Assembly (NCBI GenBank): GCA_902799185.1
Contig: CADBZO010000008.1
Location: 54,373 to 111,842, forward strand
From: an uncultured Bacteroidales bacterium
GTDB lineage: Bacteria; Bacteroidota; Bacteroidia; Bacteroidales; Paludibacteraceae
Direction: 5' to 3'
DNA length: 57,470 nucleotides
Part shown: in pieces, positions 2,304 to 49,614 of the stretch
Position numbering within the stretch: position 1 is the stretch's first letter
How the letters are laid out: each line of letters starts with the position of its first letter
Position numbers and translations under genes: made by a program
The notes under the pieces: model-generated
Told to the model about the DNA's origin: nothing
The model's database searches: none
The model's input: only the letters and a program-made list of their open reading frames with translations

Positions 2304-4374
2304 ATAAAAATTTATGATTGATGGTTGATGATGGATGAGTTGCTGTTTGTTCTACGCCTTGCGGTTGGCGTTCCGTAATCCCTGCGAGCAGACAGATGGC
2401 GTTTTCAATGAGTCGTTTGCCGTCCTCGGAGAGGAAGGCGGTGGAGTATTCCGAGACTCCGATCATGATCAGTCGTTGGGGCAGGACAGTACCGTTACAA
2501 TCCGTACCGGCGGGGAAGTCCGCAATCGTAGTGAGTGTACCGTTATTCACGGACTCTGCTGTAGCCAGCGTCTCAAAACCCGTGGTAGCTGTCCACGAGG
2601 AGATACCTGTCACGGCGTTAGTGTTCGCCTCCGTGAAGAGGGTGAGGGTATTGTCGCTGATTGCCAATCCTTCAAAGAGCGGGTGTTCGGGCTGTCCGAC
2701 GATTACTCCGAGTTCCGCCGTGTTGACGGCATTACCCCAGTTCCAGACGGTGCTCCTGAGCAGGAACGGCTTGAGCAGCACCATCGGTTTATTGTAACCT
2801 TTAAGCGGTGTAAAGCCGGTGGCACCGCTGTTGGGCTTGGAGCCCAAGACAATCACTTCGTATGCACTATAGTCCTTCTCGGGGTCAGAGGCATCTGTTT
2901 CTACAATCCATAGTTGTTTATTGGCACGGAGGTAATGCAGCAGCGCTTTGTCTTCCGTAGCACCCGGTACCGTCACATATGCAATCGCATGGGTGCCTTC
3001 GGGCTGTACGGTCGGTATGGTGTCCTCCGGGACAGGTTCGTGGTATTCGCCTTCCTTCTCATAGCAGCCTAAGTCGGGCGCCAAACCGTTATATCCTAAA
3101 TTAAGATCGGTTCCTGCGTCAATGAGTTTGGAACCGTCCGCCAGTCTCAGACACGTGCTTTCCGTCAGCGAGCCGTCTGCTTGCCGCGGAGCCAGAATCC
3201 GGGTGGTATCCAGCGAAAGGAAGTCCGCTGCGGAGCAACTATAACCGTTGTTCCAGGTATTATGGTCGTTGGTGACGTTGGTCTTTGACTTCGGCTGGTC
3301 GGCATTACGACCGCTGAGGCTGATATTATTCTGCATGTAGTTGGTTCCATAGGCGGTGGTGAAACCGAAGTTATAGCCGTTGGCATAGCCGGTGTTGTTA
3401 TACACCCACATCGTACCGCCGTTGTTGTTCTGGTCAAATCCGCGTTCGTTATTCGCCACTGCAAGGCAGTGGTGAATCAGGATCTTGTGGTCGGTGAACT
3501 GTCCGCCCATCTTAAAGCCGTTGCCGTTTCCCTGGCAGGGGTATTTGTCCAATGTGATGGTGATGGTTTTGCCATAGCGGTCTGTCATCTGAGTGCCTGT
3601 TTTGGAGTCAAACCAAGCCTTATCCACACCCGTAGCACGCGGGTTTTGGGACATATCGTAGTACGCAGGTCCGTTCTGGTAGCAGACGCAGTGCTCAATG
3701 ATGGTGTTCGAATTGCTGACGCGTTGGAAGAAGTCCCATCCGTCATCGCTGTTGTTCCATGCGCGGCAACCGATATAGTGGTTTCCCGCTCCTGTAAACT
3801 GCTTATCGGCAAATCCGTCGGCATTACCTCCGAAATTGGCAGTAGTGCCGGACATAGTCTTATAGTCGAAATTATCGTGGGAGTCCACGTTCTTGATAAT
3901 ATTGTTACCGCCCTTTTTCATCTGGCAACCCGTGTCCGCGGAACCATAGATATCCAGATTCTCAAAGAGGCAGTACGAGCCTTCGTTATAGAGGTTGTTC
4001 TTGCCGGAATAAGCAATCGCCAGATCCTTGATATGTACATAGAGCGAGTTTTCATGTACGGTAATGCCCCGTACTCCATATGCCACTTGGCGGAAATCCA
4101 GTACGGCTTTCTCTCCCGGGTAGCCGGAGATGACTATATACTTGGATTTGGAACCTTGCTTATTGATGCTGTATTTGTCCGTGAAATAATACGTTCCTCC
4201 CAGCAGGTACAAGGTGTCACCCGGCTGGGTGAGTTTCGACACACCGCCACTGAAGGAAGTAGGGCTACTATAGGAGTTGCCGTTGCCTTTTCCGTTCGGC
4301 GAGGCATAGTAGGTCGCGGCAAAGTGAGCAAGGGCCCACGTACAAAGTACGAAGGTTATGAATAGCTTTTTCAT
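2233..4374 (-). CDS. Secreted right-handed beta-helix (pectate-lyase-like) protein with T9SS sorting tail
   Basis: About 713 residues from the ATG at 4374, where MKKLFITFVLCTWALAHFAA is a clear signal peptide; the upstream in-frame extension has none. Residues about 25-440 have the Gly/Asn-rich pattern of parallel beta-helix pectate lyases related to family PL9 (TYYASPNGKGNGNSYSSP, repeated NN/GN turns). A second domain of about 200 residues follows. The C-terminus (KFLYEGQLYIQSGYRIFDIT then GRPVQL) matches a short T9SS type-A sorting tail, so export through SprA and surface attachment are expected. The substrate is inferred only as pectin-like or uronic polysaccharide. The start overlaps the GT2 stop as ATGA. 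A 4x7-bp array encodes the linker just before the tail. Confidence 0.82.
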   Translation of the reverse strand: MKKLFITFVLCTWALAHFAATYYASPNGKGNGNSYSSPTSFSGGVSKLTQPGDTLYLLGGTYYFTDKYSINKQGSKSKYIVISGYPGEKAVLDFRQVAYGVRGITVHENSLYVHIKDLAIAYSGKNNLYNEGSYCLFENLDIYGSADTGCQMKKGGNNIIKNVDSHDNFDYKTMSGTTANFGGNADGFADKQFTGAGNHYIGCRAWNNSDDGWDFFQRVSNSNTIIEHCVCYQNGPAYYDMSQNPRATGVDKAWFDSKTGTQMTDRYGKTITITLDKYPCQGNGNGFKMGGQFTDHKILIHHCLAVANNERGFDQNNNGGTMWVYNNTGYANGYNFGFTTAYGTNYMQNNISLSGRNADQPKSKTNVTNDHNTWNNGYSCSAADFLSLDTTRILAPRQADGSLTESTCLRLADGSKLIDAGTDLNLGYNGLAPDLGCYEKEGEYHEPVPEDTIPTVQPEGTHAIAYVTVPGATEDKALLHYLRANKQLWIVETDASDPEKDYSAYEVIVLGSKPNSGATGFTPLKGYNKPMVLLKPFLLRSTVWNWGNAVNTAELGVIVGQPEHPLFEGLAISDNTLTLFTEANTNAVTGISSWTATTGFETLATAESVNNGTLTTIADFPAGTDCNGTVLPQRLIMIGVSEYSTAFLSEDGKRLIENAICLLAGITERQPQGVEQTATHPSSTINHKFLYEGQLYIQSGYRIFDITGRPVQL
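2314..2341. repeat. 4 x 7-bp tandem array inside beta-helix gene
   Basis: Four heptamers (ATGATTG, ATGGTTG and two variants) fill exactly 28 bp. On the coding strand they give the Ser/His/Asn linker THPSSTINH between the last domain and the T9SS tail. Confidence 0.75.
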
Positions 4375-5087
4375 GATCGTATAAAATGTAGTTTTAGTCG
4401 TATTATGGTGAAGTAAACAATCCACCTGTATCTCCAAGTCAGTGTGTGCGCTTTCTTGCGGAGAGAAGCGAATATCCTCTTCTCGTGCTCAGGTCGGCGT
4501 ACAGCCGTCGTGCTGGCGGGGTTGAGGGTATAGAGGTAGCCGGTGTAAGGGATGAGACGGCAGGTAGCGCCGCTGCTCCATAGCTCGGTAGAGAAGAGCA
4601 CGTCCTCGTAGATCATTCCTTCGGTAAAACGCAGTCCCTCAAGCGTCTGACGCCGGTATAACCTCATGCAGGGCGAGGTGAACTGATAGCGGTGACGGGG
4701 CAATTGGCCTTTGGCGTTGCAGTCTTCCGTGTCTCTCACCCGCTTGTAGCCGCTCTGCACATAGTCCACACCCGCTATGGCAGCGAGATGCCGTTCGCAC
4801 CAATCGTTCTCTATCCGGTCGTCGGCATCCACAAAGGCGATGTATTCTCCTTGCGCGTGTGCCATACCTAAGTTCCGTGCCGCCGATTGCCCCGCATGAG
4901 GTTGCTGTAACAGTACCATACGCGGGTCGCGTGCAGCGAATGACTGCGCGATGGCGCAGCTGCCGTCCGTGCTACCGTCGTCAACCAGAATAATCCGCAA
5001 GTCCCGTTCCGTCTGGGCGAGCAGGCTCTCTATGCAGGCAGGCAGGTACGACCCGGCGTTGTATATGGGGACTATGATGCTAATCAT
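4371..5087 (-). CDS. Family 2 glycosyltransferase (GT-A)
   Basis: 238 residues. It begins with the GT2 nucleotide-binding start ISIIVPIYNAGSYLPACIES, followed by ILVDDGSTDGS and the metal-binding FVDADDR (about residues 88-94), so the GT-A catalytic core is complete. The C-terminal part is short with a basic end and no obvious membrane helices. It overlaps the GT4 gene upstream by 8 bp and the beta-helix gene downstream by ATGA, so these genes should be translated together. The role is sugar transfer in assembly of a surface glycan; donor and acceptor cannot be read from the sequence. Confidence 0.88.
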   Translation of the reverse strand: MISIIVPIYNAGSYLPACIESLLAQTERDLRIILVDDGSTDGSCAIAQSFAARDPRMVLLQQPHAGQSAARNLGMAHAQGEYIAFVDADDRIENDWCERHLAAIAGVDYVQSGYKRVRDTEDCNAKGQLPRHRYQFTSPCMRLYRRQTLEGLRFTEGMIYEDVLFSTELWSSGATCRLIPYTGYLYTLNPASTTAVRRPEHEKRIFASLRKKAHTLTWRYRWIVYFTIIRLKLHFIRS

Positions 5088-6219
5088 GGTGTAACAGGGA
5101 AAGGATTATTTCTTCTAACCGGGCACTTTGCGCTTCGCGGCTGAACTGCTCGCGGTGAGTGGCCGGCTGGCGGGTAAAGGATTGTTGCTGCCACTCGTGG
5201 TATCGCTCTGCGATAAAGGTCTTGACTGCCTCTTTGTCGTCTGTGGCGATGCCGGCGTGGGTGTAAGCGATGAGTTCGGCTAATGCGCCTTGGTCAGACG
5301 GCACACAAAGAACGGGTTTGGCGCAACCTAATGCTTCGTAGAACTTGGTGGTAAGCATCCCATGTGTATGGGGTGCCGTGAGCACCAACATGATACTGCT
5401 GCGGCGGATAGCGTCTCCCAATTGATGGTGCGGTACAGGATTGCTCTGTGGCGTGTGGATATCCAGATGGATGTCCGTATAATTCAGTTCACGGATAGCC
5501 TGTTTCACGATTTCCAATGCCGGTTTCTGCCATTCGAAAAGGCTCCCGATATAGGTAATAGTAAACTGCTCTGCCGGTATGTCCTCCGGACAGAACTGCG
5601 CCTCGTCGTAACCGTTATAGACGAGGTGGGTGTTCGTATTGAGCGGTCGGATAAATGCCTGATGCCAGGGCGAGACAGTGGTAACGGCATCGGCAGTACG
5701 TATCACGCTGTTTCTCCGGCAGATATGTATAGCCCGGTAGAGCCGCCGGAACGGCATGGTCCACCAGGTACGATGGCGGTACTGATAGGTTGAGTCGTCC
5801 ACTTGTTCGTCCAAATCGCGTATGTCGCAAAGCAAGGGCACATGAAGTACTTGCGCTATCCGTTCGGCGGCACCCAACGGGAAATCCGAGAAGGCGGAGC
5901 ATAGAACGAGGTCGTATTGGTGATTGGTGATTTGTAATTGGTGAACGGCCTTTTGTGCAAACACCCGGTTATGCCAGTCGGTGAGCAGAGTCCAGACGGT
6001 CTTTACCGCCCAGTCGGCCGTACTGCCGCTATACATCGGGATAGTAACGAGCGGGTATGAACGGTCAAACTCCATGACACCATATTCCTCCGTAAGGAGT
6101 GTCACGGCATAGCCTTTTCTTGTCAGGTACTCGCACAGATACCTCACTCGCGGCAGGTAACCGGGAGCGGCAGGCGGGTCGGTGACGACGAGGATATGTG
6201 CCTTGGTACCGTGTGCCAT
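5080..6219 (-). CDS. Family 4 glycosyltransferase (GT-B)
   Basis: 379 residues with the GT-B layout. The N-terminal part has the Pro-rich VVTDPPAAPGYLPRVRYLCEY seen in capsule GT4 enzymes. The C-terminal donor-binding half has FTITYIGSLFEWQKP and KFYEALGCAKPVLCVPSDQG, the E-x7-E-like region (about residues 293-300). It starts 3 bp after the deacetylase-like gene, within the polysaccharide gene series. A 4x7-bp array encodes residues about 92-101 (HQLQITNHQY) between the N-terminal strands, which looks like a local insertion. Substrate unknown. Confidence 0.87.
   Translation of the reverse strand: MAHGTKAHILVVTDPPAAPGYLPRVRYLCEYLTRKGYAVTLLTEEYGVMEFDRSYPLVTIPMYSGSTADWAVKTVWTLLTDWHNRVFAQKAVHQLQITNHQYDLVLCSAFSDFPLGAAERIAQVLHVPLLCDIRDLDEQVDDSTYQYRHRTWWTMPFRRLYRAIHICRRNSVIRTADAVTTVSPWHQAFIRPLNTNTHLVYNGYDEAQFCPEDIPAEQFTITYIGSLFEWQKPALEIVKQAIRELNYTDIHLDIHTPQSNPVPHHQLGDAIRRSSIMLVLTAPHTHGMLTTKFYEALGCAKPVLCVPSDQGALAELIAYTHAGIATDDKEAVKTFIAERYHEWQQQSFTRQPATHREQFSREAQSARLEEIILSLLHHD
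5916..5943. repeat. 4 x 7-bp tandem array inside GT4 gene
   Basis: Units ATTGGTG, ATTGGTG, ATTTGTA, ATTGGTG fill 28 bp within the coding region, leaving the frame open. Confidence 0.85.
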
Positions 6220-7382: not shown

Positions 7383-9215
7383 TTATTCTTCGCTCAGCAG
7401 TTCCCATTCATACATTTTCTGTTCTATCTGGTGCTTGACTGATTCGTATTTCTGGAAGTTCTCCGGCGTCTGGTTTTCGGGCAGTGCGAGCAGTTGCTCT
7501 ATCTCCGCCTGTTGCTTTTCCAGCGCGGCTATCTCTTCCTCTGTCCGAGCTATCTGGCGCTCTTTCTTGCGTTTCTCTGCCGCTGCGGCTTTCTGTGCCT
7601 CGTAGTTCAGCTTGGCGGATGTGGGCTCAACAGTACCCTGACGTATGCTTTGACCGTCGTTTGACCGTCGTTCGACCGTCGGGAATGAGTCGATATTCCT
7701 CCTTTCGAGGTCCTGAAGGTTTTCGATCTTTTTGGCGCGGAGGAAATCGTATATTCCGCCGAGGTGTTCTTTCACTCTTCCTCCGCCGAACTCATATACT
7801 TTGGAGACGAGTCCGTTGAGGAAGTCCCGGTCGTGGCTGACACATATGAGCGTGCCGTCAAAATCCTGCAGGGCGGCTTTGAGTACGTCTTTGGACTGCA
7901 TGTCGAGGTGGTTGGTAGGCTCGTCGAGGATGAGGAGGTTGCATGGTTCAAGAAGGAGGCGTATCATCGCCAGCCGGCTTCTCTCGCCTCCGGAGAGCAC
8001 TTTGACTTTCTTCTCGCTTGCCTCCCCGCCGAACATGAATGCGCCGAGGATGTCGCGAATCTTGGTCCGTATGTCGCCAACCGCCACGTAGTCGATGGTG
8101 TCAAAAACGGTCTTTTCTTCATCCAGAAGGGCAGCCTGGTTCTGGGCGAAATAGCCAATCTTGACATTATGCCCGATCTTGAGTGTCCCGAGGTAATCCA
8201 GCTGGCCCATGATACATTTGACGAGCGTGGATTTACCTTCTCCGTTCTTGCCTACGAACGCCACTTTCTCGCCGCGTCGGATGGTGAAATTGACGTCATG
8301 GAAGACGTTATGCTCGCCGAAATCTTTTCTCAGGTCCTGTATGATAAGCGGGAAGTCTCCGCTTCTCGGAGCGGGCGGGAAGCGGAGGTTGAGGCGGCTG
8401 GTGTCCTCCAAGTCCACCTCCAGCCGCTCCAGTTTCTCCAGCTGTTTGATGCGGCTCTGAACCTGTACGGCTTTCGTGGCTTTGTATCGGAAACGCTCGA
8501 TGAAATCCTCGGTCTCCTGAATCATCTTCTGCTGGTTCTGGTAGGCGCGGACCTGTTGGTCGTGGCGTTCCTTGCGCAACTCCACGAAGCGGCTGTAGTT
8601 GACGTTGTAATCGTATATCCGTCCCAGTGTGATCTCTATCGTGCGCGTGCAAACATTATCAATGAAGGCGCGGTCGTGGCTGACCATGAGTACCGCTGAA
8701 GGGCTGGTCTTGAGGAACTCCTCGAGCCATTGGATAGACTCGATGTCAAGGTGGTTGGTAGGCTCGTCGAGAAGCAGCAAGTCCGGATGTCGGAGGAGTA
8801 TCTTCGCCAGCTCGATACGCATTCTCCATCCGCCGGAGAACTCCGTGCAAGGGCGTTCGAAATCCCTCCTCTCGAATCCCAGCCCGATGATGGTCCGGTC
8901 CATCTCTGCGACGAACCGCGCCTCGTCCAGTTCGTGGTGGGATTCCTGATAAACGGTCATGACCTCTTCCCGGAGGGTGCGGTTGTCCTGAAAGAGCATC
9001 ACCTGGGGCAGGTATCCGATGGTCATCTCCGCCTCTCTTGCAATGCGTCCGGAAGTAGGCTGGTACTCTCCGGCGATGAGACGGAGCAGGGTGGTCTTGC
9101 CTGCACCGTTCTTCCCCACCAGTGCGATACGCTCCTTGCGGTTGATGAGGAAAGTGATGTCGTCCAGCACGGGGCGGGACGAGAACTCCATGGATATATG
9201 GTCAATCGTGAGCAT
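7383..9215 (-). CDS. ABC-F family ATPase (ribosome-associated, Uup/YheS-like)
   Basis: 610 residues with two ABC cassettes and no membrane helices. First cassette: Walker A GKNGAGKT (about 34-41), signature FSGGWRMR (about 126), Walker B LLLLDEPTNHLD. Second cassette: Walker A GKNGEGKST, signature LSGGERSR, DEPTNHLD. The interdomain linker and a C-terminal coiled coil rich in Glu/Lys/Ala fit ABC-F translation factors, which act at the ribosomal exit site. Housekeeping and resistance members cannot be separated by eye. Residues about 512-523 are encoded by an 11-bp repeat array. It overlaps the WecA-like gene by 14 bp. Confidence 0.92.
   Translation of the reverse strand: MLTIDHISMEFSSRPVLDDITFLINRKERIALVGKNGAGKTTLLRLIAGEYQPTSGRIAREAEMTIGYLPQVMLFQDNRTLREEVMTVYQESHHELDEARFVAEMDRTIIGLGFERRDFERPCTEFSGGWRMRIELAKILLRHPDLLLLDEPTNHLDIESIQWLEEFLKTSPSAVLMVSHDRAFIDNVCTRTIEITLGRIYDYNVNYSRFVELRKERHDQQVRAYQNQQKMIQETEDFIERFRYKATKAVQVQSRIKQLEKLERLEVDLEDTSRLNLRFPPAPRSGDFPLIIQDLRKDFGEHNVFHDVNFTIRRGEKVAFVGKNGEGKSTLVKCIMGQLDYLGTLKIGHNVKIGYFAQNQAALLDEEKTVFDTIDYVAVGDIRTKIRDILGAFMFGGEASEKKVKVLSGGERSRLAMIRLLLEPCNLLILDEPTNHLDMQSKDVLKAALQDFDGTLICVSHDRDFLNGLVSKVYEFGGGRVKEHLGGIYDFLRAKKIENLQDLERRNIDSFPTVERRSNDGQSIRQGTVEPTSAKLNYEAQKAAAAEKRKKERQIARTEEEIAALEKQQAEIEQLLALPENQTPENFQKYESVKHQIEQKMYEWELLSEE
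7649..7681. repeat. 3 x 11-bp tandem array inside ABC-F gene
   Basis: Two exact units TTTGACCGTCG and one TTCGACCGTCG (33 bp, so frame-neutral). It encodes a polar stretch ahead of the C-terminal coiled coil. A fourth neighbouring unit, if any, is too degenerate to call. Confidence 0.9.
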
Positions 9216-16051: not shown

Positions 16052-16330
16052 TTAGATCTTTTTGAGTTCGTCTTTTATTTGGGTTACCGGTCTGAAAACC
16101 AACTGGTTCTTGCTCGGCACGACAGCACGCTCACCGGTGCGGGGATGCACGATAGAGCGCTCTTTCTTCGCCTTCACTTCCAGCGTACCCAAACCTTGTA
16201 ACTGAACGGCTTTGCCGCTCATCAGCGTCTCACGCAGGATGGCGTTGTTGGTGGAGATCAGCTCCTCCACTTTCTTTTTACTCAGTCCGGTTGCACTGGC
16301 AATCATACTGACAAAATCTTTCGTTAGCAT
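16052..16330 (-). CDS. HU family DNA-binding protein
   Basis: 92 residues, the usual HU/IHF length. The N-terminal helices (MLTKDFVSMIASATGLSKKK) are followed by the beta-arm region with GLGTLEVKAKKERSIVHPRTG and the C-terminal VFRPVTQIKDELKKI. It is a histone-like nucleoid protein that bends DNA as a dimer. It overlaps the rimO end by 7 bp and precedes the HU-LysM gene by 3 bp, so the two HU proteins should be made together. Heterodimer formation between them is possible but untested. Confidence 0.93.
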   Translation of the reverse strand: MLTKDFVSMIASATGLSKKKVEELISTNNAILRETLMSGKAVQLQGLGTLEVKAKKERSIVHPRTGERAVVPSKNQLVFRPVTQIKDELKKI

Positions 16331-17737: not shown

Positions 17738-17767
17738 AAATGACCAAATGGTAAATGACCAAATGGG
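17738..17767. repeat. Four-unit 7/8-bp array between recQ and rimO
   Basis: Units AAATGACC, AAATGGT, AAATGACC, AAATGGG (30 bp), preceded by a degenerate AAATGACTCAAT. It fills the gap between the recQ stop and the TTG start of rimO. It is nearly identical to 45923-45952. Confidence 0.9.
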
Positions 17768-17775
17768 AAAATAGA

Positions 17776-20462: not shown

Positions 20463-20472
20463 AATACATACC

Positions 20473-29482: not shown

Positions 29483-29520
29483 GGTTACCTTCTTGACCTC
29501 TGACCCTACATAAAGGTCAC

Positions 29521-32997: not shown

Positions 32998-33025
32998 AAT
33001 TATCAATGTACAATTTACAATTCAC
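32998..33025. repeat. 4 x 7-bp array upstream of galM
   Basis: Units AATTATC, AATGTAC, AATTTAC, AATTCAC (28 bp), 9 bases before the galM ATG, with a possible fifth unit at 32991. Inverted relative to the array at 33107-33134. Confidence 0.85.
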
Positions 33026-33106
33026 AAAGCGTCCTAACGGCTTTTGTACAAAACAGAAAAGATAGTACGAACCTTAAAACATAGTACCAAACTCATAGAG
33101 CCCTTT

Positions 33107-33134
33107 GTCCATTGTACATTGTGAATTGTTAATT
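33107..33134. repeat. 4 x 7-bp array at the galK 3' end
   Basis: Units GTCCATT, GTACATT, GTGAATT, GTTAATT (28 bp); the galK stop codon touches its end. On the minus strand it shares the units AATGTAC and AATTCAC with 32998-33025, so the pair forms imperfect inverted repeats around 81 bp. Confidence 0.87.
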
Positions 33135-41900: not shown

Positions 41901-44045
41901 GCGGAACTTGTTCTTCTCGCTCATCTCTTGCGCTATCACGAGCGTAGAGTCATACAGCTCCGGGAAGCAGTATTTCTTCGCTAACGCCGTGTTCGCGCCG
42001 CCTAACTGCTCGGCCAGATAGCTGCCGAACGGCTCCAGTACCGGGAAGATGATCTTACCCGTTCCCGACTGGATGGTCACGCCCTCCAGGAAGTCGAACC
42101 GGCCATCCGGTGCAGCGTTGTGTTTCTGGTCCAGACGGTCCAGGTTCATCACACGGATCAGCTGTTTGCCGTTAATTGGACCTTCCGTCAGGTATTGCAT
42201 GTCCGTGCCCACCGAGTCGTTGCGGTAGGTCACGTATAGTTCGAACTTGTCGGAGTTGATACTGGTAGCACCTAACGAATAGATGTTCTTCATCATCAGG
42301 TCCCAGGTACCGCGGCCTTTGTGCCCCGGAGCGTTGGCACTGCTCTTCAGCATCTTCAACGCCAGCGCATTAGGCGTACGCAGCTCGTCGCTGCCGTCCG
42401 TCGAGAACTCGCCGACCTGATACACCTGACCGTTGTACGTGTACTCGTAGGCTACCGCCAGCACCTCGTCCTGGTTCAGCGCGCTCTTCAGAGAGATGAA
42501 TCCCAACGCGCTGTTGAGCGTGTACTCGCTGCTGTTCAGCAGCCGCGCTGACTCGATCTTCTCGAAATCCACGCCGCCTTCCATCCCGTTCAGACCGCCC
42601 AGAGCTGTACTCGTCTGGTCTATCTGGCGGAAATTAGTAGCCTGTATATCGGTGTACAGGTTGTTCATCTTGTTGTCCGGAGCAGGCCTTTGGTTGGGAC
42701 CCCAATACAGCTGCGAGTGACTGGCTGACTCGCCTAAGTCAGTGAATGCCACGATGTTACGCGCCTCGTCGTAGTTGCCCCTTTTGTTGGTCACCCATAC
42801 CTCGATCTTGTTGATCTGCACGCCGCTTGCGATATACGGTACGGTCGTCATCGCCTTTTCGAAATTATCGCGGAAGAAATGACTCAGGAAGAAGTGCCTG
42901 TTCTCATCGTAGCTGTCACCCGCGATGTCGAATTTCGACATCTGCGCGCCGCCTTGGCTGCTTACCGACTGTGCCTCGCTGTTCTGCTGGCTGATCAACG
43001 CTTGGATCTTGAACTTGCCGAATTTCAGGTTCGTCTTGATACCGAACAGCGCCTTGCTGCCGCGGATGAGCGAACTCGGCAGATCCATGGTCACGTTACC
43101 TGCCTCGATGCTCTGGATGATATCATCCTCGTCGCCTTTGTAGTTAATCTTGATATTCTGTTGGTCGAACGAGAAAGAGGCCTCCGTGTTGTAACTCATG
43201 GTGAAGTTCAGCTTCTGGCCTACCTTGCCTTGGATGCTGGCTTGGATCTTCTCGTCGAAATCGAAGATGTTATTGTTTCGCGCACGGGGCGTGAGAGACG
43301 GGTTGGCGATATACTGGTGTTTGAATCCGAACAGCAACTCCGCACTACCTTGCATCTTCAGTTGCACTCCGCCCGGGCCGAACACTTTGTCGGCCGGACC
43401 GATGTTGAATTTCATGTCCGTGATGTCAAACTTCCGCTCGTTGTTATGCTCCACCTCGCCTATCTTCTGCTGCCAGTACCGGTGCATGATCTGCCGCTCG
43501 GCGTATTGGTTGTATTCCTCCTGCGTCAGCATGTACGGCGTGGTGATATCTGTCTCGCCGATACGCGTGCGGATGACATAACGGCCGTTCTCCGGCTGGT
43601 ACTCCACCGTCGTGGTTACGTTCTCCGGGTCCTGCAGGTCCAGCGAGGAGACAGGTCTTGTCAGTTCCCCGTAGTTTTGTGCACCTAACTGCTTCACGTT
43701 GGTCGGTGCCCAGTAACTGCTGTCCGTCTCGGTCACGAAATCCGCTACATCCTCCGGCACAACTTCGCCGGCGGCTATCTTTGCCTCGCGCTCGGCCTCA
43801 CGCTGTTTGCGTTCCTCCTCGCGTTGCTTGCGTTCTTCTTCACGCCGTGCTTTCTCTTCCTCCTCCGCTTTCTTCTCCGCCTCGCGCGCTGCCTTGGCAG
43901 CTTCTTTCTGGGCCTTCTCTTCGGCTATCAGCTCCTTCAGCGTCTTAGGCTTCTTCGGTGTCTCCTGCGCAAAAAGCCCTGTAGTTGCAAAGGGCAACCA
44001 CAGCAACAGACTAACCAATAATATATTTGAATATCTACCTTTCAC
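38760..44045 (-). CDS. sprA: SprA (T9SS translocon), N-terminal fragment truncated by a frameshift
   Basis: 1761 residues: about 1692 genuine SprA residues, then 69 out-of-frame ones after STYDTKD. Signal peptide MKGRYSNILLVSLLLWLPFATTG; a charged Glu/Arg/Lys helix (about 30-95); then SprA repeats such as LPSSLIRGSKALFGIKTNLKFG and GHTRDVGSTGTAYIDDFEST. SprA is the 36-strand outer-membrane channel of type IX secretion. The gene follows ruvA, a common Bacteroidota order. The start is GTG at 44045, inside a heptamer array. The break is a 7-bp tandem duplication at 38964-38977. Confidence 0.93.
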   Translation of the reverse strand: MKGRYSNILLVSLLLWLPFATTGLFAQETPKKPKTLKELIAEEKAQKEAAKAAREAEKKAEEEEKARREEERKQREEERKQREAEREAKIAAGEVVPEDVADFVTETDSSYWAPTNVKQLGAQNYGELTRPVSSLDLQDPENVTTTVEYQPENGRYVIRTRIGETDITTPYMLTQEEYNQYAERQIMHRYWQQKIGEVEHNNERKFDITDMKFNIGPADKVFGPGGVQLKMQGSAELLFGFKHQYIANPSLTPRARNNNIFDFDEKIQASIQGKVGQKLNFTMSYNTEASFSFDQQNIKINYKGDEDDIIQSIEAGNVTMDLPSSLIRGSKALFGIKTNLKFGKFKIQALISQQNSEAQSVSSQGGAQMSKFDIAGDSYDENRHFFLSHFFRDNFEKAMTTVPYIASGVQINKIEVWVTNKRGNYDEARNIVAFTDLGESASHSQLYWGPNQRPAPDNKMNNLYTDIQATNFRQIDQTSTALGGLNGMEGGVDFEKIESARLLNSSEYTLNSALGFISLKSALNQDEVLAVAYEYTYNGQVYQVGEFSTDGSDELRTPNALALKMLKSSANAPGHKGRGTWDLMMKNIYSLGATSINSDKFELYVTYRNDSVGTDMQYLTEGPINGKQLIRVMNLDRLDQKHNAAPDGRFDFLEGVTIQSGTGKIIFPVLEPFGSYLAEQLGGANTALAKKYCFPELYDSTLVIAQEMSEKNKFRLTGKYKGTNSSEIRLGAMNVPRGSVTVTAGGATLIENVDYTVDYTMGTVTILNTSILESGTNVDVKLENQSTFSMQRKSLFGAHLEYEFNKDLVIGGTIMHLRERPLTTKVNMGHEPLANTIWGVNGSWKTELQWLTNAIDKIPWITATAPSTFQISAEFAHLIPGHTRDVGSTGTAYIDDFESTTTNIDVHYPNYWFLASTPTPFAESKDVNKISYNKNRAHLAWYSVDPIFGYPQTNTPDHIRNDLAALSDHRTRIVYQDEIYPNRQEASNVDTKLPILNLAYYPEERGQYNISYEEIGTDGKLSHPEQRWGGIMRRLENTDFEKANIEYIQFWLMDPALTNPDHPTDYNGELYINLGDVSEDILRDGKKAFEHGMPVSDNDLGRVDSTIWGLVPKTTSTVTAFSNEAGSRERQDVGLNGLNDAQELSWGSYKTFVDTLRSKVSGDVLSRWQRDPFSPLNDPAGDNFHFFRGTDYDEQQVPILDRYKHYNGTQGNSPATEQQTESYGTAATLTPDMEDINLDNTLNEYEKYYQYKVILRPDMMDVGRQHITEKKVRKVTLRNGETVDVTWYQFKIPLHGDSATMQRVGSIRNWKSIRFMRMYLTGFQHETFLRFATMDLVRGEWRQYTRELSPVGLPVNPTASIDVQTVNIEENSTRSPINYVLPPGVSRQTDPGQAQLIAQNEQAMVLRVSNLSPRDARAMYKNTGYDMRQYKNLQMFVHAEQMSAVDPNLKDDELTCFIRLGSDLKNNYYEYEIPLKLTAPGMYNNENENDREAVWPRANMFDFPLSVFTDAKTARNKARRAGNEGVSNTQPYVVYDDANDKPQNKITVLGNPTLEEISTIMIGVRNNGQHDASGEIWVNELRLSQFNEQGGVAAMANASLAISDIAQVNVAGHLETAGYGSIESNVMDRNLDNFYQISVSAALEAGRLLPEKAKIQMPLYVAYSKEVTSPDYDPLDTDVKLSETLSTYDTKDQRGTRLYQTDDKHRTRVHVVLGKQHEGQYPLEEERHVLRPGELLYLRVIQQTGGALARDGDQLHHRPQG
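38964..38977. repeat. Frameshifting 7-bp tandem duplication in sprA
   Basis: TCTTTGG occurs twice in a row (38964-38970, 38971-38977). Deleting one copy restores one frame across the junction, reading STYDTKEERDSIKQMTN. The surplus of 7 bases equals the frame offset between the two sprA fragments. Confidence 0.9.
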
Positions 44046-44070
44046 TTTTCAATTTTCACTTTTCACCTTT
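44043..44070. repeat. 4 x 7-bp array between ruvA and sprA
   Basis: Units CACTTTT, CAATTTT, CACTTTT, CACCTTT (28 bp). It fills the whole gap between the ruvA stop (44071) and sprA and supplies the GTG start of sprA. Confidence 0.9.
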
Positions 44071-44676
44071 CTAAAGCATTTTTAACGCTTCGCGGATGAC
44101 GGCCTCCACCTTCATCGCCGGGTTGCCTTTTAGAATCTTATCTACGGCCTTGCTGCTGGCGGCTGCATTGAAACCGAGCATCGTCAGCGCACTCACTGCC
44201 TCTGCTTTCACGCCGCTATCCGCCTCTACATCCAACATGGGAATCTCCGTCGGGTCTCCGCCCAAATCCAGTTTGATAGCCTTGTCCTTGAGGTCCACGA
44301 TGATACGTTGCGCAGTCTTTGTTCCAAGACCTTTCACTTTCGACATCGCTTTGGCGTTACCGGTGGCGATCAGCATTCGCAACTCTTCTGCGGTGAAAGC
44401 AGAGAGGATCATGCGCGCTGTGGCGGCGCCGATGCCGCTCACCGTCATCAGCAACTCAAATAACTGACGCTCGGTCTTGGTGGCAAAACCATATATCTCA
44501 TGGGTGTCCTCACGGATGATCTCCGTGATAAACAACTTGGTGTCTTTCTCCTCGCTTCCCACTAACGACGAGTAGGTCGGCAATGTGATAGCGATTCCGT
44601 AACCCACACCGGCGGCTTCTATAATCGCTTCCGTCGGGTTTAATTCCGTTAATATGCCTTTGATATATTCGATCAT
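44071..44676 (-). CDS. ruvA: Holliday junction branch migration protein RuvA
   Basis: 201 residues from the ATG at 44676 (MIEYIKGILTEL); the longer open frame to 44739 lacks family support and includes the leader. Domain I (OB fold) ends with HEIYGFATKTERQLFELLM. Domain II has helix-hairpin-helix motifs SGIGAATARMILSA and KVKGLGTKTAQRIIVDLKDK. The short C-terminal domain III (VDKILKGNPAMKVEAVIREA) would bind RuvB. RuvA tetramers hold Holliday junctions. A promoter lies at 44726-44756. The sprA gene follows directly. Confidence 0.96.
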   Translation of the reverse strand: MIEYIKGILTELNPTEAIIEAAGVGYGIAITLPTYSSLVGSEEKDTKLFITEIIREDTHEIYGFATKTERQLFELLMTVSGIGAATARMILSAFTAEELRMLIATGNAKAMSKVKGLGTKTAQRIIVDLKDKAIKLDLGGDPTEIPMLDVEADSGVKAEAVSALTMLGFNAAASSKAVDKILKGNPAMKVEAVIREALKML

Positions 44677-44797: not shown

Positions 44798-44825
44798 AAT
44801 TTTCAATTTTCAATTTTCAGTTTTC
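44798..44825. repeat. 4 x 7-bp array upstream of thiL
   Basis: Units AATTTTC (three times) and AGTTTTC (28 bp). It covers the position where the upstream promoter box of thiL should be. Confidence 0.9.
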
Positions 44826-44837
44826 AATTTATTTTCG

Positions 44838-44865: not shown

Positions 44866-45912
44866 ATGACAGAAATAGCTAAATATGGTGAGTTCGGACT
44901 CATCAAACATCTGACCAAAGACCTCAAAACGGTCCAGCCTTCGACCAAGAAAGGCATCGGAGATGACTGTGCCGTCATGGATTTCGGCTCCAAGAAAGTC
45001 CTAATGACTACCGACATGCTCCTCGAGGGCATTCATTTTAACCTCGAGTACGTGCCGCTCAAACACCTCGGTTACAAAGCCGCCGTGGTGAATTTCTCGG
45101 ATATCTACGCCATGAACGGTACGCCTACCCAGATCACCGTCTCGCTCGGCATCTCCAAACGGTTCTCCGTGGAAGATATAGAAGCCCTCTATGCCGGCAT
45201 ACGTCTGGCCTGTGAGCGGTATAAGGTCGATCTCGTCGGAGGTGACACCTGTGCCTCCATGACCGGACTGACTATCTCCATTACCTGCCTCGGTACCGCG
45301 GCCGCCAAGGATATCGTCTATCGCAACGGTGCCAAACTCAACGACCTCATCTGTGTCTCAGGCAACCTCGGTACGGCGTACATGGGCCTCCAGCTTCTCG
45401 AAAGAGAAAGGTTGGCGATGAGCCAGAGTACGCCGAATACTCCGAGTACTCCGGATACTCCGATTGCTGCCTTCGAGGGGCGCGAATACCTCCTCGAACG
45501 CCAGCTCAAACCCGAGGCGCGCAGAGACATCCTCGAATCCCTCCGCAAGGTGGGTGTCAAGCCTACGGCAATGATGGATGTGTCGGACGGACTCTCCTCC
45601 GAACTCATGCATATATGCTCGCAATCCAACGTCGGCTGTTGCATCTACGAGGACAAACTGCCTATTGACTTCCAGGCTGCCGCGCTGGCTGAGGAGATGA
45701 ACCTCAATATCGTCACTTGCGCCCTCAACGGCGGAGAGGACTACGAACTCCTCTTCACCTGTTCGCTCGACGACTACGAGAAACTCATCCCCGTGGAGGA
45801 CCTGTATATCATCGGGCATATCACCAAACCTGAATACGGCTGTAACCTCATTGGCCGTAACGGCGAAGAAATAACCCTCAAAGCACAGGGCTGGAACGCT
45901 TTTAATGGTTAA
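44866..45912 (+). CDS. thiL: Thiamine-monophosphate kinase
   Basis: 348 residues from the ATG at 44866 (MTEIAKYGEFGLIKHL); a GTG two codons upstream also fits. Motifs: GIGDDCAVMDFGSKKVLMTTDML, VNFSDIYAMNGTPTQ, GGDTCASMTGLTISIT, MMDVSDGLSSELMHI and NGGEDYELLFT. These are the metal- and substrate-binding elements of ThiL, which makes thiamine diphosphate. Residues about 188-200 (STPNTPSTPDTPI) come from a 36-bp array of 9-bp units and are not part of the usual fold. The gene heads a plus-strand series with kdsC next. Confidence 0.95.
   Translation: MTEIAKYGEFGLIKHLTKDLKTVQPSTKKGIGDDCAVMDFGSKKVLMTTDMLLEGIHFNLEYVPLKHLGYKAAVVNFSDIYAMNGTPTQITVSLGISKRFSVEDIEALYAGIRLACERYKVDLVGGDTCASMTGLTISITCLGTAAAKDIVYRNGAKLNDLICVSGNLGTAYMGLQLLERERLAMSQSTPNTPSTPDTPIAAFEGREYLLERQLKPEARRDILESLRKVGVKPTAMMDVSDGLSSELMHICSQSNVGCCIYEDKLPIDFQAAALAEEMNLNIVTCALNGGEDYELLFTCSLDDYEKLIPVEDLYIIGHITKPEYGCNLIGRNGEEITLKAQGWNAFNG
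45429..45464. repeat. 4 x 9-bp tandem array inside thiL
   Basis: Units TACGCCGAA, TACTCCGAG, TACTCCGGA, TACTCCGAT (36 bp), encoding Ser/Thr/Pro repeats. Confidence 0.93.
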
Positions 45913-45922
45913 ATGACCAAAT

Positions 45923-45952
45923 AAATGAACAAATGGTAAATGACCAAATGGT
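45923..45952. repeat. Four-unit 7/8-bp array between thiL and kdsC
   Basis: Units AAATGAAC, AAATGGT, AAATGACC, AAATGGT (30 bp), with a degenerate AAATGACCAAAT before it. It contains the kdsC start codon and nearly matches 17738-17767. Confidence 0.9.
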
Positions 45953-46526
45953 AAATAAGGTGAGGCTGTTCCTCACCGATGTGGATGGCTGCCTCACGGA
46001 CGGCGGAATGTATTACACCGCCGAGGGCGAAGTCATGAAGCGTTTCTGTGTCTATGACGGCATGGGCATGGTCTGCCTTCAGCAGGCGGGTATCCCTTGC
46101 GGCATCCTCACCTCTGAGAACAGCCTTGTCGTCAAAGCCCGCGCGGAGAAACTCAAACTCCAATATCTCTACCTCGGTGTCGGCTCCAAAGTAGGAAAGT
46201 CCGTCACCAGATATGATTTTTCTTTGTCTGCTTCTCGGGGCGTAAGCACCGAGCTCCCGCCAATGACGAAATTGGAGGCGGCCAAAGAGATATGCGACGC
46301 CCTCGGCATCACCCTCGCCGACGTCTGTTACGTAGGCGATGACATCAACGACCTTGACCTCCTCCGCGCCGTAGGCTACCCCTGCTGCCCGCCCAATGCC
46401 CGCCCCAAGGTCAAAACCGTCACACAAGCTGCCGGAGCCAAAGCGGACATACGAATCTTGAACACACCCGGAGGACAGGGAGCCGTCAGAGAGATAGCGG
46501 ATTCCATACTGACAGAATCGGTATAG
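45933..46526 (+). CDS. kdsC: 3-deoxy-D-manno-octulosonate 8-phosphate phosphatase (KdsC), with an insert
   Basis: 197 residues. C0-type HAD phosphatase motifs: FLTDVDGCLTDGGMYY (motif I), ILTSENS (motif II), a Lys in the TKLEAAKEI region and VCYVGDDINDLDLL (motif IV). It removes phosphate from Kdo-8-P for lipid A-core synthesis, in keeping with kdsD nearby. The first eight residues (MVNDQMVN) are encoded by the heptamer array; a second ATG at 45948 could be the real start. Residues about 86-111 (KVGKSVTRYDFSLSASRGVS and on) are extra, since KdsC is usually near 170-175 residues. Confidence 0.9.
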   Translation: MVNDQMVNKVRLFLTDVDGCLTDGGMYYTAEGEVMKRFCVYDGMGMVCLQQAGIPCGILTSENSLVVKARAEKLKLQYLYLGVGSKVGKSVTRYDFSLSASRGVSTELPPMTKLEAAKEICDALGITLADVCYVGDDINDLDLLRAVGYPCCPPNARPKVKTVTQAAGAKADIRILNTPGGQGAVREIADSILTESV

Positions 46527-46538
46527 TCTCGACTCTCC

Positions 46539-46582
46539 ATCGGATGCTCATCGGGTGCTCATCGGATGCTCATCGGATGCTC
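46539..46582. repeat. 4 x 11-bp tandem array after kdsC, first of two
   Basis: Units CATCGGATGCT (three) and CATCGGGTGCT (one), 44 bp, 12 bp after the kdsC stop. Confidence 0.94.
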
Positions 46583-46587
46583 AAGGC

Positions 46588-46631
46588 GACGACACCGCGA
46601 TATAACCGCGATATAAACGCGATATAAAGAA
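46588..46631. repeat. 4 x 11-bp tandem array before the IspD-like gene, second of two
   Basis: Units CGACGACACCG (degenerate), CGATATAACCG, CGATATAAACG, CGATATAAAGA (44 bp), 5 bp after the first array. It runs up to the IspD-like start. The CGATATAACC unit is the complement of GGTTATATCG in the 29521 array. Confidence 0.85.
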
Positions 46632-47335
46632 TGTATAACATAGCCATTATATTAGCCGGAGGGAAAGGCGCGAGAGTAGGGGGAGAGACCCCGAAGCAGT
46701 TGTTGCCCCTCGCTGACGGGCGCTCGGTACTCGAGCACGCCGTTGAGGCGTTTGAGGCCTCGCCATCTATAGACGAGATAGCCGTGGTCATGCACCCGGA
46801 TTTCATGGGGGACCTGCAGAAGATATGCCAAGCGAACACTTGGCAGAAGCTGACCAGACTCATCCCCGGTGGTTCCGAACGGTGGGAGTCGTCCTGGCAT
46901 GCCATTCTGGCGTATATGGACGATGAATCGTCAATCGTCAATCATCAATCGCCTATCAACCTCTGGTTCCACGACGCCGCACGGCCTTTCGTCTCCCGGC
47001 GCATCCTTGCCGACATAGCTGCCGCGCTGGAGACTCACGATGCCGTCACGGTAGCCGTTCCTGTCACCGACACTTTGTACAGGACGGAGGACGGCCATGT
47101 GCGTGAGATACCGGATAGAAAGAACTTCATGCGTGCCCAGACACCCCAGGCTTTCCGTTTCGAGCTGGTAGCAGGCGCCTATATGAAAGCTCTTGCCGAG
47201 GACGAACCCGTTGCTACTGACGATGCCGGTATCGTACGCAAATACGAACCGCGGCACCCGATCTTCATCGTACCCGGCGAAGAAGCCAACCGCAAAATCA
47301 CCTACGCAGAGGATCTCAAACAAACCGTACAATAA
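46631..47335 (+). CDS. ispD: IspD-like cytidylyltransferase (2-C-methyl-D-erythritol 4-phosphate type)
   Basis: 234 residues. Signature IILAGGKGARVGGETPKQLLPL (CTP binding), VPGGSERWESS, FHDAARPFVS, VPVTDTLYR and RAQTPQAFRFELV...TDDAGIV. This is the IspD/TarI family; IspD makes CDP-methylerythritol for isoprenoids, TarI uses ribitol-5-phosphate. No TarJ-like partner is beside it, so IspD is preferred. Residues about 99-108 (SSIVNHQSPI), before the FHDAARPF strand, come from a heptamer array. It starts right after two 11-bp arrays and overlaps the GT4 gene as TAATG. Confidence 0.8.
   Translation: MYNIAIILAGGKGARVGGETPKQLLPLADGRSVLEHAVEAFEASPSIDEIAVVMHPDFMGDLQKICQANTWQKLTRLIPGGSERWESSWHAILAYMDDESSIVNHQSPINLWFHDAARPFVSRRILADIAAALETHDAVTVAVPVTDTLYRTEDGHVREIPDRKNFMRAQTPQAFRFELVAGAYMKALAEDEPVATDDAGIVRKYEPRHPIFIVPGEEANRKITYAEDLKQTVQ
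46925..46952. repeat. 4 x 7-bp array inside the IspD-like gene
   Basis: Units GAATCGT, CAATCGT, CAATCAT, CAATCGC (28 bp), with a possible fifth (CTATCAA). Confidence 0.85.
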
Positions 47336-48492
47336 TGAAAATCATCCTTTTAGGCACAGCATACCCTTACCGCGGCGGACTCGCGACGTTCAACGAACGG
47401 CTTGCACGCCAGTTTATGTACGAGGGCCACGAGGTGGAGCTATGGACCTTCACCCTTCAATACCCCTCTTTCCTCTTCCCCGGCAAGACGCAGTACTCGT
47501 CCGAGCAAGCACCGAAAGGCCTGCTTATCCGTCGGACGCTCAACTCCTGCAACCCCTTCAACTGGCTCCGTGTGGGACGTGCTGTCCGCAAGGCGGCACC
47601 CGACCTGCTAATATGCTGTTACTGGATGGCGTTCTTCGCACCCGCGTACGGACTCATCTCACGCATGGCGCGACGCAACGGCAAGACCAAAGCTATAGCT
47701 TTGGTGCATAACATGATGCCCCATGAGCCATCCATATTGGATAAACTCTTTGCTCCTTATTTTGTCAAGAGCCAGGACGGCTTCATCGCCCTCTCTGAAA
47801 GTGTCATAAAGGATATAGAGAGAGTGGAACATAAAATCTCAAATGTAAAATGTAAAATATCAAATAGACCAAAGGTCTCTTCTCCTCACCCCATCTACGA
47901 CCATTACGGCGAGCGGATAGCCAAGGCGGAGGCATGCAAGGCGTTAGGGCTGCCGGAAAACAAACAGTATATGCTTTTCTTTGGTCTTGTGCGGGCTTAC
48001 AAAGGTTTGGATTTGTTGCTTGACGCCTTCGGACAGATAAAAGACCAACTGCCTGAATTACAGTTAATCATAGCCGGAGAGTTCTACGAGCACGAGGACA
48101 AATACCGCGCGCAGATAGAGGCGAACGGACTGACCGACAGGGTGATCCTACGCAACGAGTTTATCCCCGACGCCGACCTGCGCAAGTATTTCGGTGCGGC
48201 GGATCTCATCGTGCAGCCCTATAAGTCGGCTACGCAGTCCGGCGTGACGCAAGTAGCCTTCCATTTCGAGAAACCCATGCTTGTGACGAACGTAGGAGGG
48301 CTTGGCGAGATCGTGCATGACCATAAGATGGGCTATGCGTGCGCGCCGGGGGCGGACGCTATAGCGGAAGACTTGCTGGATTATTTCAACAATAACCGTC
48401 AAGCGTCTTATACAGAGTATTTGAAAAAAGAGAAAACCAAATACGCGTGGTCCAACATGACTGCTGCGTTCCTGAATATATTATCCGAATAA
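47335..48492 (+). CDS. Family 4 glycosyltransferase (GT-B)
   Basis: 385 residues. N-terminal LLGTAYPYRGGLATFNERLA is the Gly-rich acceptor-side loop of GT4 enzymes. The C-terminal half has YMLFFGLVRAYKGLDLLLDA and LIVQPYKSATQSGVTQVAFHFEKPMLVTNVGGLGEI (donor binding, split here across the E-x7-E region). Residues about 167-176 (KISNVKCKIS), between the two domains, are encoded by a heptamer array. It lies between an IspD-like gene and kdsD; a role in lipopolysaccharide core assembly is likely but inferred. Confidence 0.88.
   Translation: MKIILLGTAYPYRGGLATFNERLARQFMYEGHEVELWTFTLQYPSFLFPGKTQYSSEQAPKGLLIRRTLNSCNPFNWLRVGRAVRKAAPDLLICCYWMAFFAPAYGLISRMARRNGKTKAIALVHNMMPHEPSILDKLFAPYFVKSQDGFIALSESVIKDIERVEHKISNVKCKISNRPKVSSPHPIYDHYGERIAKAEACKALGLPENKQYMLFFGLVRAYKGLDLLLDAFGQIKDQLPELQLIIAGEFYEHEDKYRAQIEANGLTDRVILRNEFIPDADLRKYFGAADLIVQPYKSATQSGVTQVAFHFEKPMLVTNVGGLGEIVHDHKMGYACAPGADAIAEDLLDYFNNNRQASYTEYLKKEKTKYAWSNMTAAFLNILSE
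47834..47861. repeat. 4 x 7-bp array inside GT4 gene
   Basis: Units AAATCTC, AAATGTA, AAATGTA, AAATATC (28 bp). Confidence 0.88.
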
Positions 48493-48531: not shown

Positions 48532-49614
48532 ATGTCAGAAATAGATATCAAACAACGCGCGATAGATTGCCTTCACATGGAAGCAAATGCAATCTTGGCA
48601 TTGGAAGAACGTATCGACGATAACTTCCTCCGCGCGGTACAGCTCCTCAAAGAGTGCAAAGGCAAAGTGGTGGTCACCGGTGTCGGCAAGTCCGGACATA
48701 TAGGTTCGAAGATTGCTGCTACACTGGCTTCGACGGGAACGCCGGCTTTCTTCCTTAACCCGCTGGATGCCTACCATGGCGACTTGGGTATGCTGGCAAC
48801 AGGGGACGTGCTTCTCGCTATCTCCTATTCCGGCGCAACGGAGGAACTGCTTCGTTTCCTGCCGCTGATTCAGGATAAGCATATACCTATCATCGGGCTC
48901 TCCGGCAATCCGAACTCGCTCTTGGCGAAATACGCGGATGTGCATCTGTCTATCGCTGTGGAGCGCGAGGCGGATCCGCTCAACCTTGTTCCTACCTCTT
49001 CTACCACCGTCACCCTCGCTCTTGGCGACGCACTTGCTTGTGCACTCATCGAGGCGGCACATTTCCAGCCTACCGACTTCGCCATGCTCCATCCCGGAGG
49101 CGACCTCGGGCGTAAGCTGCTCGCCAAAGTGAAGGACGTGATGGTGAAAGATAATCTCCCCTTCCTCACACCCGATATGCCGATGTCAGAAGCCATCGAG
49201 ATTGTGACGAAAGGTGCACTGGGTGTCGGGATAGTAGTGGAAAACCTCTCTTCGGGTTGTTCTACGGACGGTCACCGGCAGTCCGACCGAGCAGAGCTCT
49301 TCACCCGCTCAACGGAGAAGGAAAAGTGTTTGGTAGGAATAGTGACCGACGGGGATATACGACGTGCGATGCAACGGTTGGGTAAAGCGTTCTTCGAGAC
49401 GAAGGTTGAAGAGATCATGTCCCGCAAGCCCAAGACTATCAGCAAGGATGCGAAGATCGTCGAGGCGGGTGAGATGATGAACCATCACTCCATCCACACC
49501 CTGATTGTGGTAGATGAAATGTCAAATGACAAATGTCAAATGTCAAATCCCCTTCATGTCGTCGGCGTCATCGACTCCTTCTCCTGCCTACCCGGCACAC
49601 GTTTTTATCACTAA
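48532..49614 (+). CDS. kdsD: D-arabinose-5-phosphate isomerase (KdsD/KpsF), with two inserts
   Basis: 360 residues against about 320-325 normally. SIS domain: VVVTGVGKSGHIGSKIAATL, STGTPAFFLNP, LAISYSGATEELL, VPTSSTTVTLALGDALA and FAMLHPGGDLGRKLL. Then two CBS domains (LPFLTPDMPMSEA and ending VVGVIDSFSCL). It converts ribulose-5-phosphate to arabinose-5-phosphate, the first step to Kdo, matching kdsC upstream. Extra residues are about 242-266 (CSTDGHRQSDRAELFTRSTE and on), inside CBS1, and about 329-338 (MSNDKCQMSN), inside CBS2; the second is a heptamer array. Confidence 0.93.
   Translation: MSEIDIKQRAIDCLHMEANAILALEERIDDNFLRAVQLLKECKGKVVVTGVGKSGHIGSKIAATLASTGTPAFFLNPLDAYHGDLGMLATGDVLLAISYSGATEELLRFLPLIQDKHIPIIGLSGNPNSLLAKYADVHLSIAVEREADPLNLVPTSSTTVTLALGDALACALIEAAHFQPTDFAMLHPGGDLGRKLLAKVKDVMVKDNLPFLTPDMPMSEAIEIVTKGALGVGIVVENLSSGCSTDGHRQSDRAELFTRSTEKEKCLVGIVTDGDIRRAMQRLGKAFFETKVEEIMSRKPKTISKDAKIVEAGEMMNHHSIHTLIVVDEMSNDKCQMSNPLHVVGVIDSFSCLPGTRFYH
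49517..49544. repeat. 4 x 7-bp array inside kdsD
   Basis: Units AAATGTC, AAATGAC, AAATGTC, AAATGTC (28 bp), within the second CBS domain. Confidence 0.92.

Follow-up and report, generated by a model that had tools for sequence, protein, structure and literature searches.

Tandem heptamers dispersed in many copies are reportedly found in cyanobacteria, as short tandemly repeated repetitive (STRR) sequences and small dispersed repeats. The arrays described here share with these the period of seven, the dispersal and the many copies, and their host phylum differs. They lie in a stretch of 57,470 nucleotides, the window, which covers positions 54373-111842 of contig C8 in the 2.43-Mb, 55-contig genome of an uncultured Bacteroidales bacterium (G000, called the own genome below). 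A reading of its letters alone, the sequence-only reading, had reported scattered microarrays of four units nearly every time and knew of no described four-unit rule.

Such a rule had been described for G-rich heptamers. In Rehm et al. 2015 (PMC4692102), GGGAATC and GGGGA(C/T)T of Xanthomonas and Nostoc prefer four units, which is tied to quadruplexes. Those arrays range from 2 to 26 units and include inverted pairs in Xanthomonas. The present arrays resemble them in the dispersal, the period 7, the four-unit preference and the variation of sequence and length between close species, but have few G-tract words and several word families per genome.

Another described system is the TAACTGA tandem repeats of MacGregor 2015 (PMC4679880), found in Beggiatoaceae and Cyanobacteria and in a few Bacteroidetes, among them Paludibacter with two sets. 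They too are tandem heptamers, and a set in the main genome has 2-6 copies. They consist of one word, which mostly lies directly before start codons, and related heptamers are rarely repeated, whereas many words are used here. Exact TAACTGA pairs numbered 0 on both strands of our three sampled sets. According to its summary in the same paper, Mrazek 2007 finds heptamers to be the commonest class of the 5-11-nt long simple sequence repeats in most repeat-rich genomes, with slippage as the account and no preferred count.

No four-unit rule for words without G-tracts was found in the literature search, which left subscription papers mostly outside, likewise Mazel 1990, Mrazek 2007 and Elhai 2008. 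Heptamer arrays and a four-unit preference are already known, and the preference in words without G-tracts is apparently new. The only published explanation found for it, the G-quadruplex, does not cover the words here.

Four units at period seven

Arrays were detected by Tandem Repeats Finder (TRF) and by an independent lag scan, and both recover them. The window holds 25 arrays of period 5-24, whereas 20 order-3 Markov versions of it average 0.8, and a 457-kb sample of the own genome holds 181, among them 81 of period 7, against a Markov mean of 4.2. The composition-matched random sequence is thus far poorer in arrays, and chance or base composition is ruled out as their source. Assembly error is unlikely, because a number of arrays recur letter-identical at matching sites in a separately assembled sister genome, G041. 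That genome carries the closest relative, L031 (RUG12032), in an ispD search that gave 14 related loci (10 Bacteroidales and 4 Paludibacteraceae, with yak omasum, goat abomasum and sheep among the sources). Its IspD is 95% identical and G041 matches the window at 91-92% identity over the alignable parts.

Units of period 7 were counted from a seed, a perfect lag-7 run of at least 11 matches, followed by extension. Two units and four bases suffice for it, a low threshold taken because long arrays should not be favoured. The counts come from three sets, the own sample (n=61), G041 (n=83) and other members of the genus (n=67), which total 211 arrays and partly overlap via orthologous ones.

Pooled arrays of two, three, four, five, six and at least seven whole units number 36, 35, 88, 27, 11 and 14, with four well above three (88 vs 35, binomial p=9.7e-7). 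The same series reads 9, 8, 24, 7, 5 and 8 in the own genome, 20, 13, 33, 12, 3 and 2 in G041 and 7, 14, 31, 8, 3 and 4 in the other genus genomes. Removal of flank-similar duplicates leaves 190 arrays with 32, 31, 78, 25, 11 and 13 (78 vs 31, p=3.9e-6). With the seed lowered to 7 matches, the observed counts minus those of one Markov run are 66, 57, 112 and 40 for two to five units. The preference of period-7 arrays for four whole units is a real regularity of a known repeat class. The smooth fall from two upward that is expected of slippage-driven simple sequence repeats (here 36, 35, 88, 27) is seen in none of the three sets.

The regularity is narrower than the sequence-only reading had it. 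Four is the commonest count, but only 24 of the 61 period-7 arrays in 457 kb have it, far from nearly every time. The sharp peak anticipated for several periods appears at period 7 in the three sets and not at periods 8, 9, 11 and 12, whose pooled counts show no mode at four, albeit with small n of 19, 24, 47 and 24. From two units up, period 8 gives 7, 6 and 2 arrays and period 9 gives 10, 6, 3 and 4, while the 11-mers have their mode at two or three units in each set. Periods 6 and 8 counted with a seed of 8 fall steeply, from 98 to 5 and from 52 to 11. Hence the four-unit rule is a period-7 rule.

The peak is found in and out of genes. By a simple codon-score classifier, which is not gene annotation so that another annotation could shift the classes, 132 arrays divide into 40 inside coding sequence (CDS), 57 with one coding flank, 24 with two and 11 non-coding. 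Copy numbers of 4.0-4.9 occur in 20/40 of those inside CDS, 27/57 of those with one coding flank and 7/11 of the non-coding ones. For the G-rich heptamers, which are mostly (68-93%) intergenic, PMC4692102 gives an inside-gene share of 7-11% for Xanthomonas and roughly one third for Nostoc, next to the 40/132 here.

Array words and their turnover

The usual array repeats a 4-nt core (AATT, AAAT, AAAG etc.) five times with 3-nt spacers between, for example four AATTGAG plus AATT or four AGTC(A/G)AA plus AG. Perfect lag-7 runs group at 11-13 matches, with lesser clusters at 18-20 and 23-25, because the arrays read core-spacer-core; such groups would be expected of arrays that end at cores. The share of variation within three adjacent phases, 0.88 vs 0.74, is suggestive of variation confined to the spacers but is biased by detection.

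The AGTC(N)AA class is the sharpest case, with a near-ceiling at four. In the sampled genus DNA its 42 arrays have two (11), three (4) or four (27) units and none is longer; 35 arrays with distinct flanks give 8, 3 and 24. Hand counts among the matches listed give 20, 7, 15, 1 and 1 arrays of two to six units in G009 (88/93 matches listed; 44 arrays) and 14, 12, 15, 3 and 1 in G007 (100/133 matches listed; 45 arrays). AGTC matches are patchy, 0 to 133 per genus genome, against 0 to 3 per strand for the reversed pattern. Among 16 genomes of other families, only one (G031) has the pattern, with six matches.

Units of this class are ordered. The single A among three G falls at positions 1, 2, 3 and 4 in 1, 20, 11 and 2 of 34 four-unit arrays (p=3.8e-6), and without the known duplicate (L070 at 12517, the same as G007:C20:72517) p is 9.4e-6. 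The unit pattern G-A-G-G makes up 20/75 four-unit AGTC arrays, the patterns of six genomes being hand-copied from among the matches listed. The AATT(C/T)(G/T)T class is polar as well, its first spacer being CGT in 12/14 and its last TTT in 9/14 arrays of a set that includes one orthologous pair and windows of longer arrays. Variant words are shared between arrays: minority units one base off the majority unit are reused in other arrays in 28/39 cases in the own genome (8.4 expected) and 38/50 in G041 (14.6 expected).

Arrays also turn over quickly. Among 141 own arrays of periods 7, 8, 9, 11, 14 and 15, 70 could be placed in the G041 sample and were classed automatically as 19 conserved, 16 length-changed, 10 facing another array and 25 facing none, classes that are partly borderline (the 11-mer at 7649 scored as another array at 0.85 identity). 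Array-free versions of orthologous sites therefore exist in relatives, where the sites are often empty or hold an unrelated array. The clearest birth is a clean 33-bp difference, three 11-mers that G041 has next to an AAACG occurring once in the own genome.

Loops of proteins show the same exchange. The own genome and G042 share a 7-mer array in a loop of an MFS gene, where G041 has a 4 x 10 array. One loop of a KdsD-like gene is 12 nt in 10/21 sequences and 21-90 nt in 11/21, and its longer versions include unrelated arrays and G-rich palindromes. The inserts at both loops are in frame by construction, because only stop-free, same-frame inserts were accepted.

Beyond the genus, seven genomes of other families of the order have 1 period-7 array in 127 kb, G034 has 11, G040 has two, both of four units, and G037 has none in 38 kb. 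Three cyanobacterial plasmids (600 kb), a small, non-random sample picked for an AGTC-like match, hold 20 period-7 arrays, of which 11 are four-unit, 15 are of 26-34 bp and 4 are quadruplex-capable. AATT-NNN and AGTCAAA arrays occur on plasmids of Nostoc, Anabaena and Calothrix.

A search for four exact AGTC units matched 29 viral contigs, and less exact matches lie on cyanobacterial plasmids. By distinct flanks the viral contigs have 6 four-unit and 11 longer arrays, which differs from the genus distinct-flank counts (Fisher p=3.9e-6, the viral search having begun from exact four-unit matches).

Possible copying in 30-bp pieces and the rival explanations

We tentatively favour, with a probability of about 0.4, that the period-7 arrays are tiny dispersed repeats that are written or copied in pieces ~30 bp long, or four 7-nt units plus 2-5 nt. 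Such repeats would be spread through the coding and non-coding DNA of one Bacteroidales genus and turn over fast. An array may be made or copied in a single patch; the likeliest route is template switching in replication or repair, with the repeated 4-nt core serving as the microhomology. Template switching at the cores would make the arrays end at cores, and the patch length would be set by the repair machinery and not by any function of the array.

Several observations weigh against this. The alignment to G041 covers 168 kb and has 30 clean indels, none of them a 4 x 7 array inserted into an empty site, so that one-step birth is inferred. Non-orthologous arrays share the exact unit order in 37 cases, slightly above the 23-34 of ten shuffles, and detection accounts for part of the way in which variation gathers in three adjacent phases. 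The AGTC word is also present in unrelated bacteria, so the common vocabulary may partly reflect word preference and not copying. In the order relative G034, four units make up 2/11 period-7 arrays (three of two units, one of three, two of four, four of six and one of seven).

The peak itself is also uneven. Arrays of 5-13 units are 52/211, and those between two coding flanks lack the peak (4/24 with 4.0-4.9 copies). When units are near-identical (at least 0.97), two-unit arrays are commonest in the own genome (9/24) and G041 (20/35), and four-unit ones are commonest only in the other genus genomes (10/28). Slippage-like length changes were met too, of 21 bp (L055), 8 bp (L063), 15 bp, and 42 and 63 bp (L051, L061).

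A serious rival, only a little less probable than the copying of ~30-bp pieces that we prefer, is replication slippage with a length optimum. Arrays would grow from a seed and be trimmed once they pass ~30 bp, for instance through recombination of the longer identical tracts, and four would be the equilibrium. The length changes just given are whole-unit changes between close species, and the two-unit excess among identical-unit arrays is what growth from short seeds predicts. Likewise, a single unit plus AAAT stands in L033 (G044) at the KdsD-like site where the window has four units plus AAAT. The lead of heptamers among simple sequence repeats (summary in PMC4679880) fits slippage as well.

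However, slippage does not sit easily with the overall deficit of two- and three-unit arrays, nor with the ordered units of the AGTC class. The near-ceiling of that class holds in the genus, whereas viral contigs carry longer arrays of this word. Moreover, 19 of the 70 placed sites are conserved in letters and length.

The sequence-only reading had thought of a binding platform, here a protein that reads four or five cores. The fixed core spacing would suit it, as would a CDS share of the arrays (40/132) below that of random positions (321/600). Nevertheless it is improbable, as unit sequences differ widely and sister-species sites are often empty or occupied by another array. Many arrays also lie within housekeeping genes, and the window genes that carry them include ispD and ThiL-like, MFS and glycosyltransferase genes.

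Selection on the reading frame has very little chance of being the cause. A single unit cannot keep the frame with fewer than three more (21 bp), which would make four the tolerated count, and net inserts of ~27-36 bp are common at the KdsD-like loops under the acceptance rule given above. Yet the peak also occurs in arrays beside or away from genes (4.0-4.9 copies in 34/68 of those flanked by coding sequence on one side at most), so it does not come from the frame. By the codon score, AGTC arrays of 30 bp stand both inside CDS (L093, L097, L038) and outside (L051, L062, L063).

That the RAYT-like HUH transposases of the genus move the arrays is equally hard to credit. The window has one such gene at 28343-29458, a diverged one (NF047646 53.8 bits, cutoff 80; PF01797 22.4, cutoff 23), eight were found in G000, and the window query matches 17/25 genus genomes, counting the own one, but nothing in the 16 genomes from other families. 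It matches nothing in 8/25 genus genomes, though G021 among these has period-7 arrays. No period-7 array lies within 1 kb of the eight G000 genes, near which 11-mer arrays (at three of the genes) and a 9-mer and a 6-mer array were seen. Repetitive extragenic palindromic (REP) elements and REPINs have a palindromic unit beside a RAYT gene, whereas the heptamer arrays are direct repeats, none near the RAYT-like genes. RAYT as the mover is disfavoured on both counts.

Least credible of all is a folded structure that requires four units, as the G-quadruplex proposed for G-rich heptamers: the four-unit preference of Xanthomonas coincides with four G-tracts in PMC4692102, but four GGG or CCC runs, as a three-tetrad quadruplex needs, are in only 3/211 arrays and 1/88 four-unit arrays here, 151 arrays without GG or CC keep the peak (30, 24, 64 and 19 for two to five units), and only 4/20 plasmid arrays of cyanobacteria are quadruplex-capable. 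Since the words here cannot form a quadruplex, the four-unit count needs another cause.

A wider version of the copying of ~30-bp pieces, which we regard as doubtful, would be that bacteria of several phyla write heptamer arrays of any word in ~30-bp quanta of four units plus one core. The quadruplex-linked preference in Xanthomonas and Nostoc might then be a side effect of this copying or repair step; here the step would also swap one array for another, of a different word or period, at one site. Words that cannot fold in this way show the preference, inside genes as well as outside them; it recurs across three sets of one genus and in another phylum, the latter sampled thinly and not at random. 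Should complete genomes bear it out, the count would inform how bacteria make or copy short repeats, and the arrays would be a lasting supply of loop insertions for housekeeping proteins.

Arrays and other repeats in the window

Among the 16 sites that had been listed for period 7, nine are good, with 3.4-5.0 units. ATTGGTG (5916-5944, 4.1 units) lies within a glycosyltransferase gene (5080-6219, minus strand) and is kept in G041 at 0.96 identity. AAATGAC (21165-21195, plus strand, 4.4 units by lag scan) is in frame in the MFS gene. Both TRF and the lag scan report TTTCACT (44037-44071, listed at 44043, 5.0 units), where the G041 sequence differs, and the intergenic AATTTTC (44798-44830, 4.7 units), which G041 keeps at 0.88 identity. 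AATCGTC (46926-46957, plus strand, 4.6 units) is in frame in ispD, where relatives have none or other inserts.

Two more are on the plus strand, AAATGTA/AAATCTC (47832-47865, listed at 47834, 4.9 units), in frame in a glycosyltransferase gene, and AAATGTC (49517-49548, four units plus AAAT) in the SIS/CBS-domain (KdsD-like) gene. The remaining two good sites, 33004 (listed 32998) and 33102 (listed 33107), belong to one composite repeat, described below. ATTGATG at 2310-2338 is weak, with ~4 units by TRF (4.1 copies, 81% matches).

The other six turned out otherwise. CTTTTGT (16401-16431) within the UPF0004/radical-SAM/TRAM gene (16324-17736, minus strand) has four units by eye but 2.6 by TRF (16407-16424). 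The arrays at 17738-17774 and 45922-45956 have period 15 (8+7); the former makes a clean 37-bp difference to G041, and the latter, on the plus strand at the start of the gene after the AIRS-domain (ThiL-like) gene, is absent in G041. The array at 20435-20470 has period 14 (AATCATAAACTTGC, 2.2-2.5 copies, TRF) and is missing from its G041 site. Those at 14198 and 15608 are irregular and reported by neither program as period 7.

The longer periods fared unevenly too. The single 4 x 8 array stands (21845-21874, CACTAGTT, 3.8 units by TRF); it is intergenic, with a 9-mer array in the same gap of G041. Two of three 4 x 9 arrays were recovered, one at 45426-45463 (9 x 3.9, plus strand), in frame in the ThiL-like gene and missing in several relatives, and one by TRF at 17305-17340 (9 x 4.0, 74% matches) within the UPF0004 gene; that at 19992 is absent from the TRF output. 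Likewise, two of three 4 x 11 arrays hold, at 29514-29561 (AGGTCGCGGTC, 4.1 units, TRF and lag scan), downstream of the RAYT-like gene, and 46538-46583 (CATCGGATGCT, 4.2 units), but the one at 46594-46628 (ACCGCGATATA) has only 3.1. The last two are intergenic, found by TRF and absent in G041.

Further arrays had been missed. They are the 3 x 11 array TTTGACCGTCG at 7649-7681 within the open reading frame (ORF) 7383-9215 (TRF and lag scan), two 11 x 3.3 arrays at 20123 and 20160, and two TRF arrays within an HU-domain gene (14951-16048, minus strand). The latter are a GTACATT-class array of period 7/15 at 15218-15295 and a 9-mer array, TCCGGGTTT, of 15.6 copies at 15468-15607.

The composite dispersed repeat at 33004-33134 has heptamer arms at 33004-33027 and, inverted, at 33102-33134 around a 74-bp core, and four copies in the 457-kb own sample. 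It recurs in L047, L055 and L064, with inverted heptamer arms around the conserved core AAAGCGTCC...GTAC, and some GTACATT arrays may be its solo arms. The flanks of 113 own arrays share mainly promoter-like sequence apart from this one composite, which disfavours transposition of the arrays within a larger unit. Neighbouring arrays within 200 bp number 66 against 40 expected, and few are inverted copies. One locus (L048, 7878-7946) has a pair of identical four-unit AATTGAG arrays 5 bases apart, with none in G041.

Around the RAYT-like genes of G000, other repeats were noticed by eye. L181 (G000:C21:27501-31500) has several copies of a palindromic repeat (TATTACGTCGTCTAGTTGACGACAT type) on either side of the gene, and L178 (G000:C39:20001-24500), downstream of another, has CRISPR-like direct repeats of ~47 bp with ~30-bp spacers.

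G-rich palindromic elements (GGGAGAGG type) lie at 17050-17083 and 17340-17370 inside the UPF0004/radical-SAM gene, and relatives carry similar ones at loops of other genes. Several sites have a microarray in one species and a G-rich palindrome in the other.

Rickettsia palindromic elements are short repeats inserted in frame in protein genes, longer than the heptamer arrays and palindromic. They are nearer to an in-frame insert of ~28 amino acids at 49243-49326, within ORF 48532-49614, than to the heptamer arrays. The insert is missing in many relatives and its peptide matches further places in G000, G018, G022 and G002, so it looks like a dispersed in-frame element reminiscent of those of Rickettsia.

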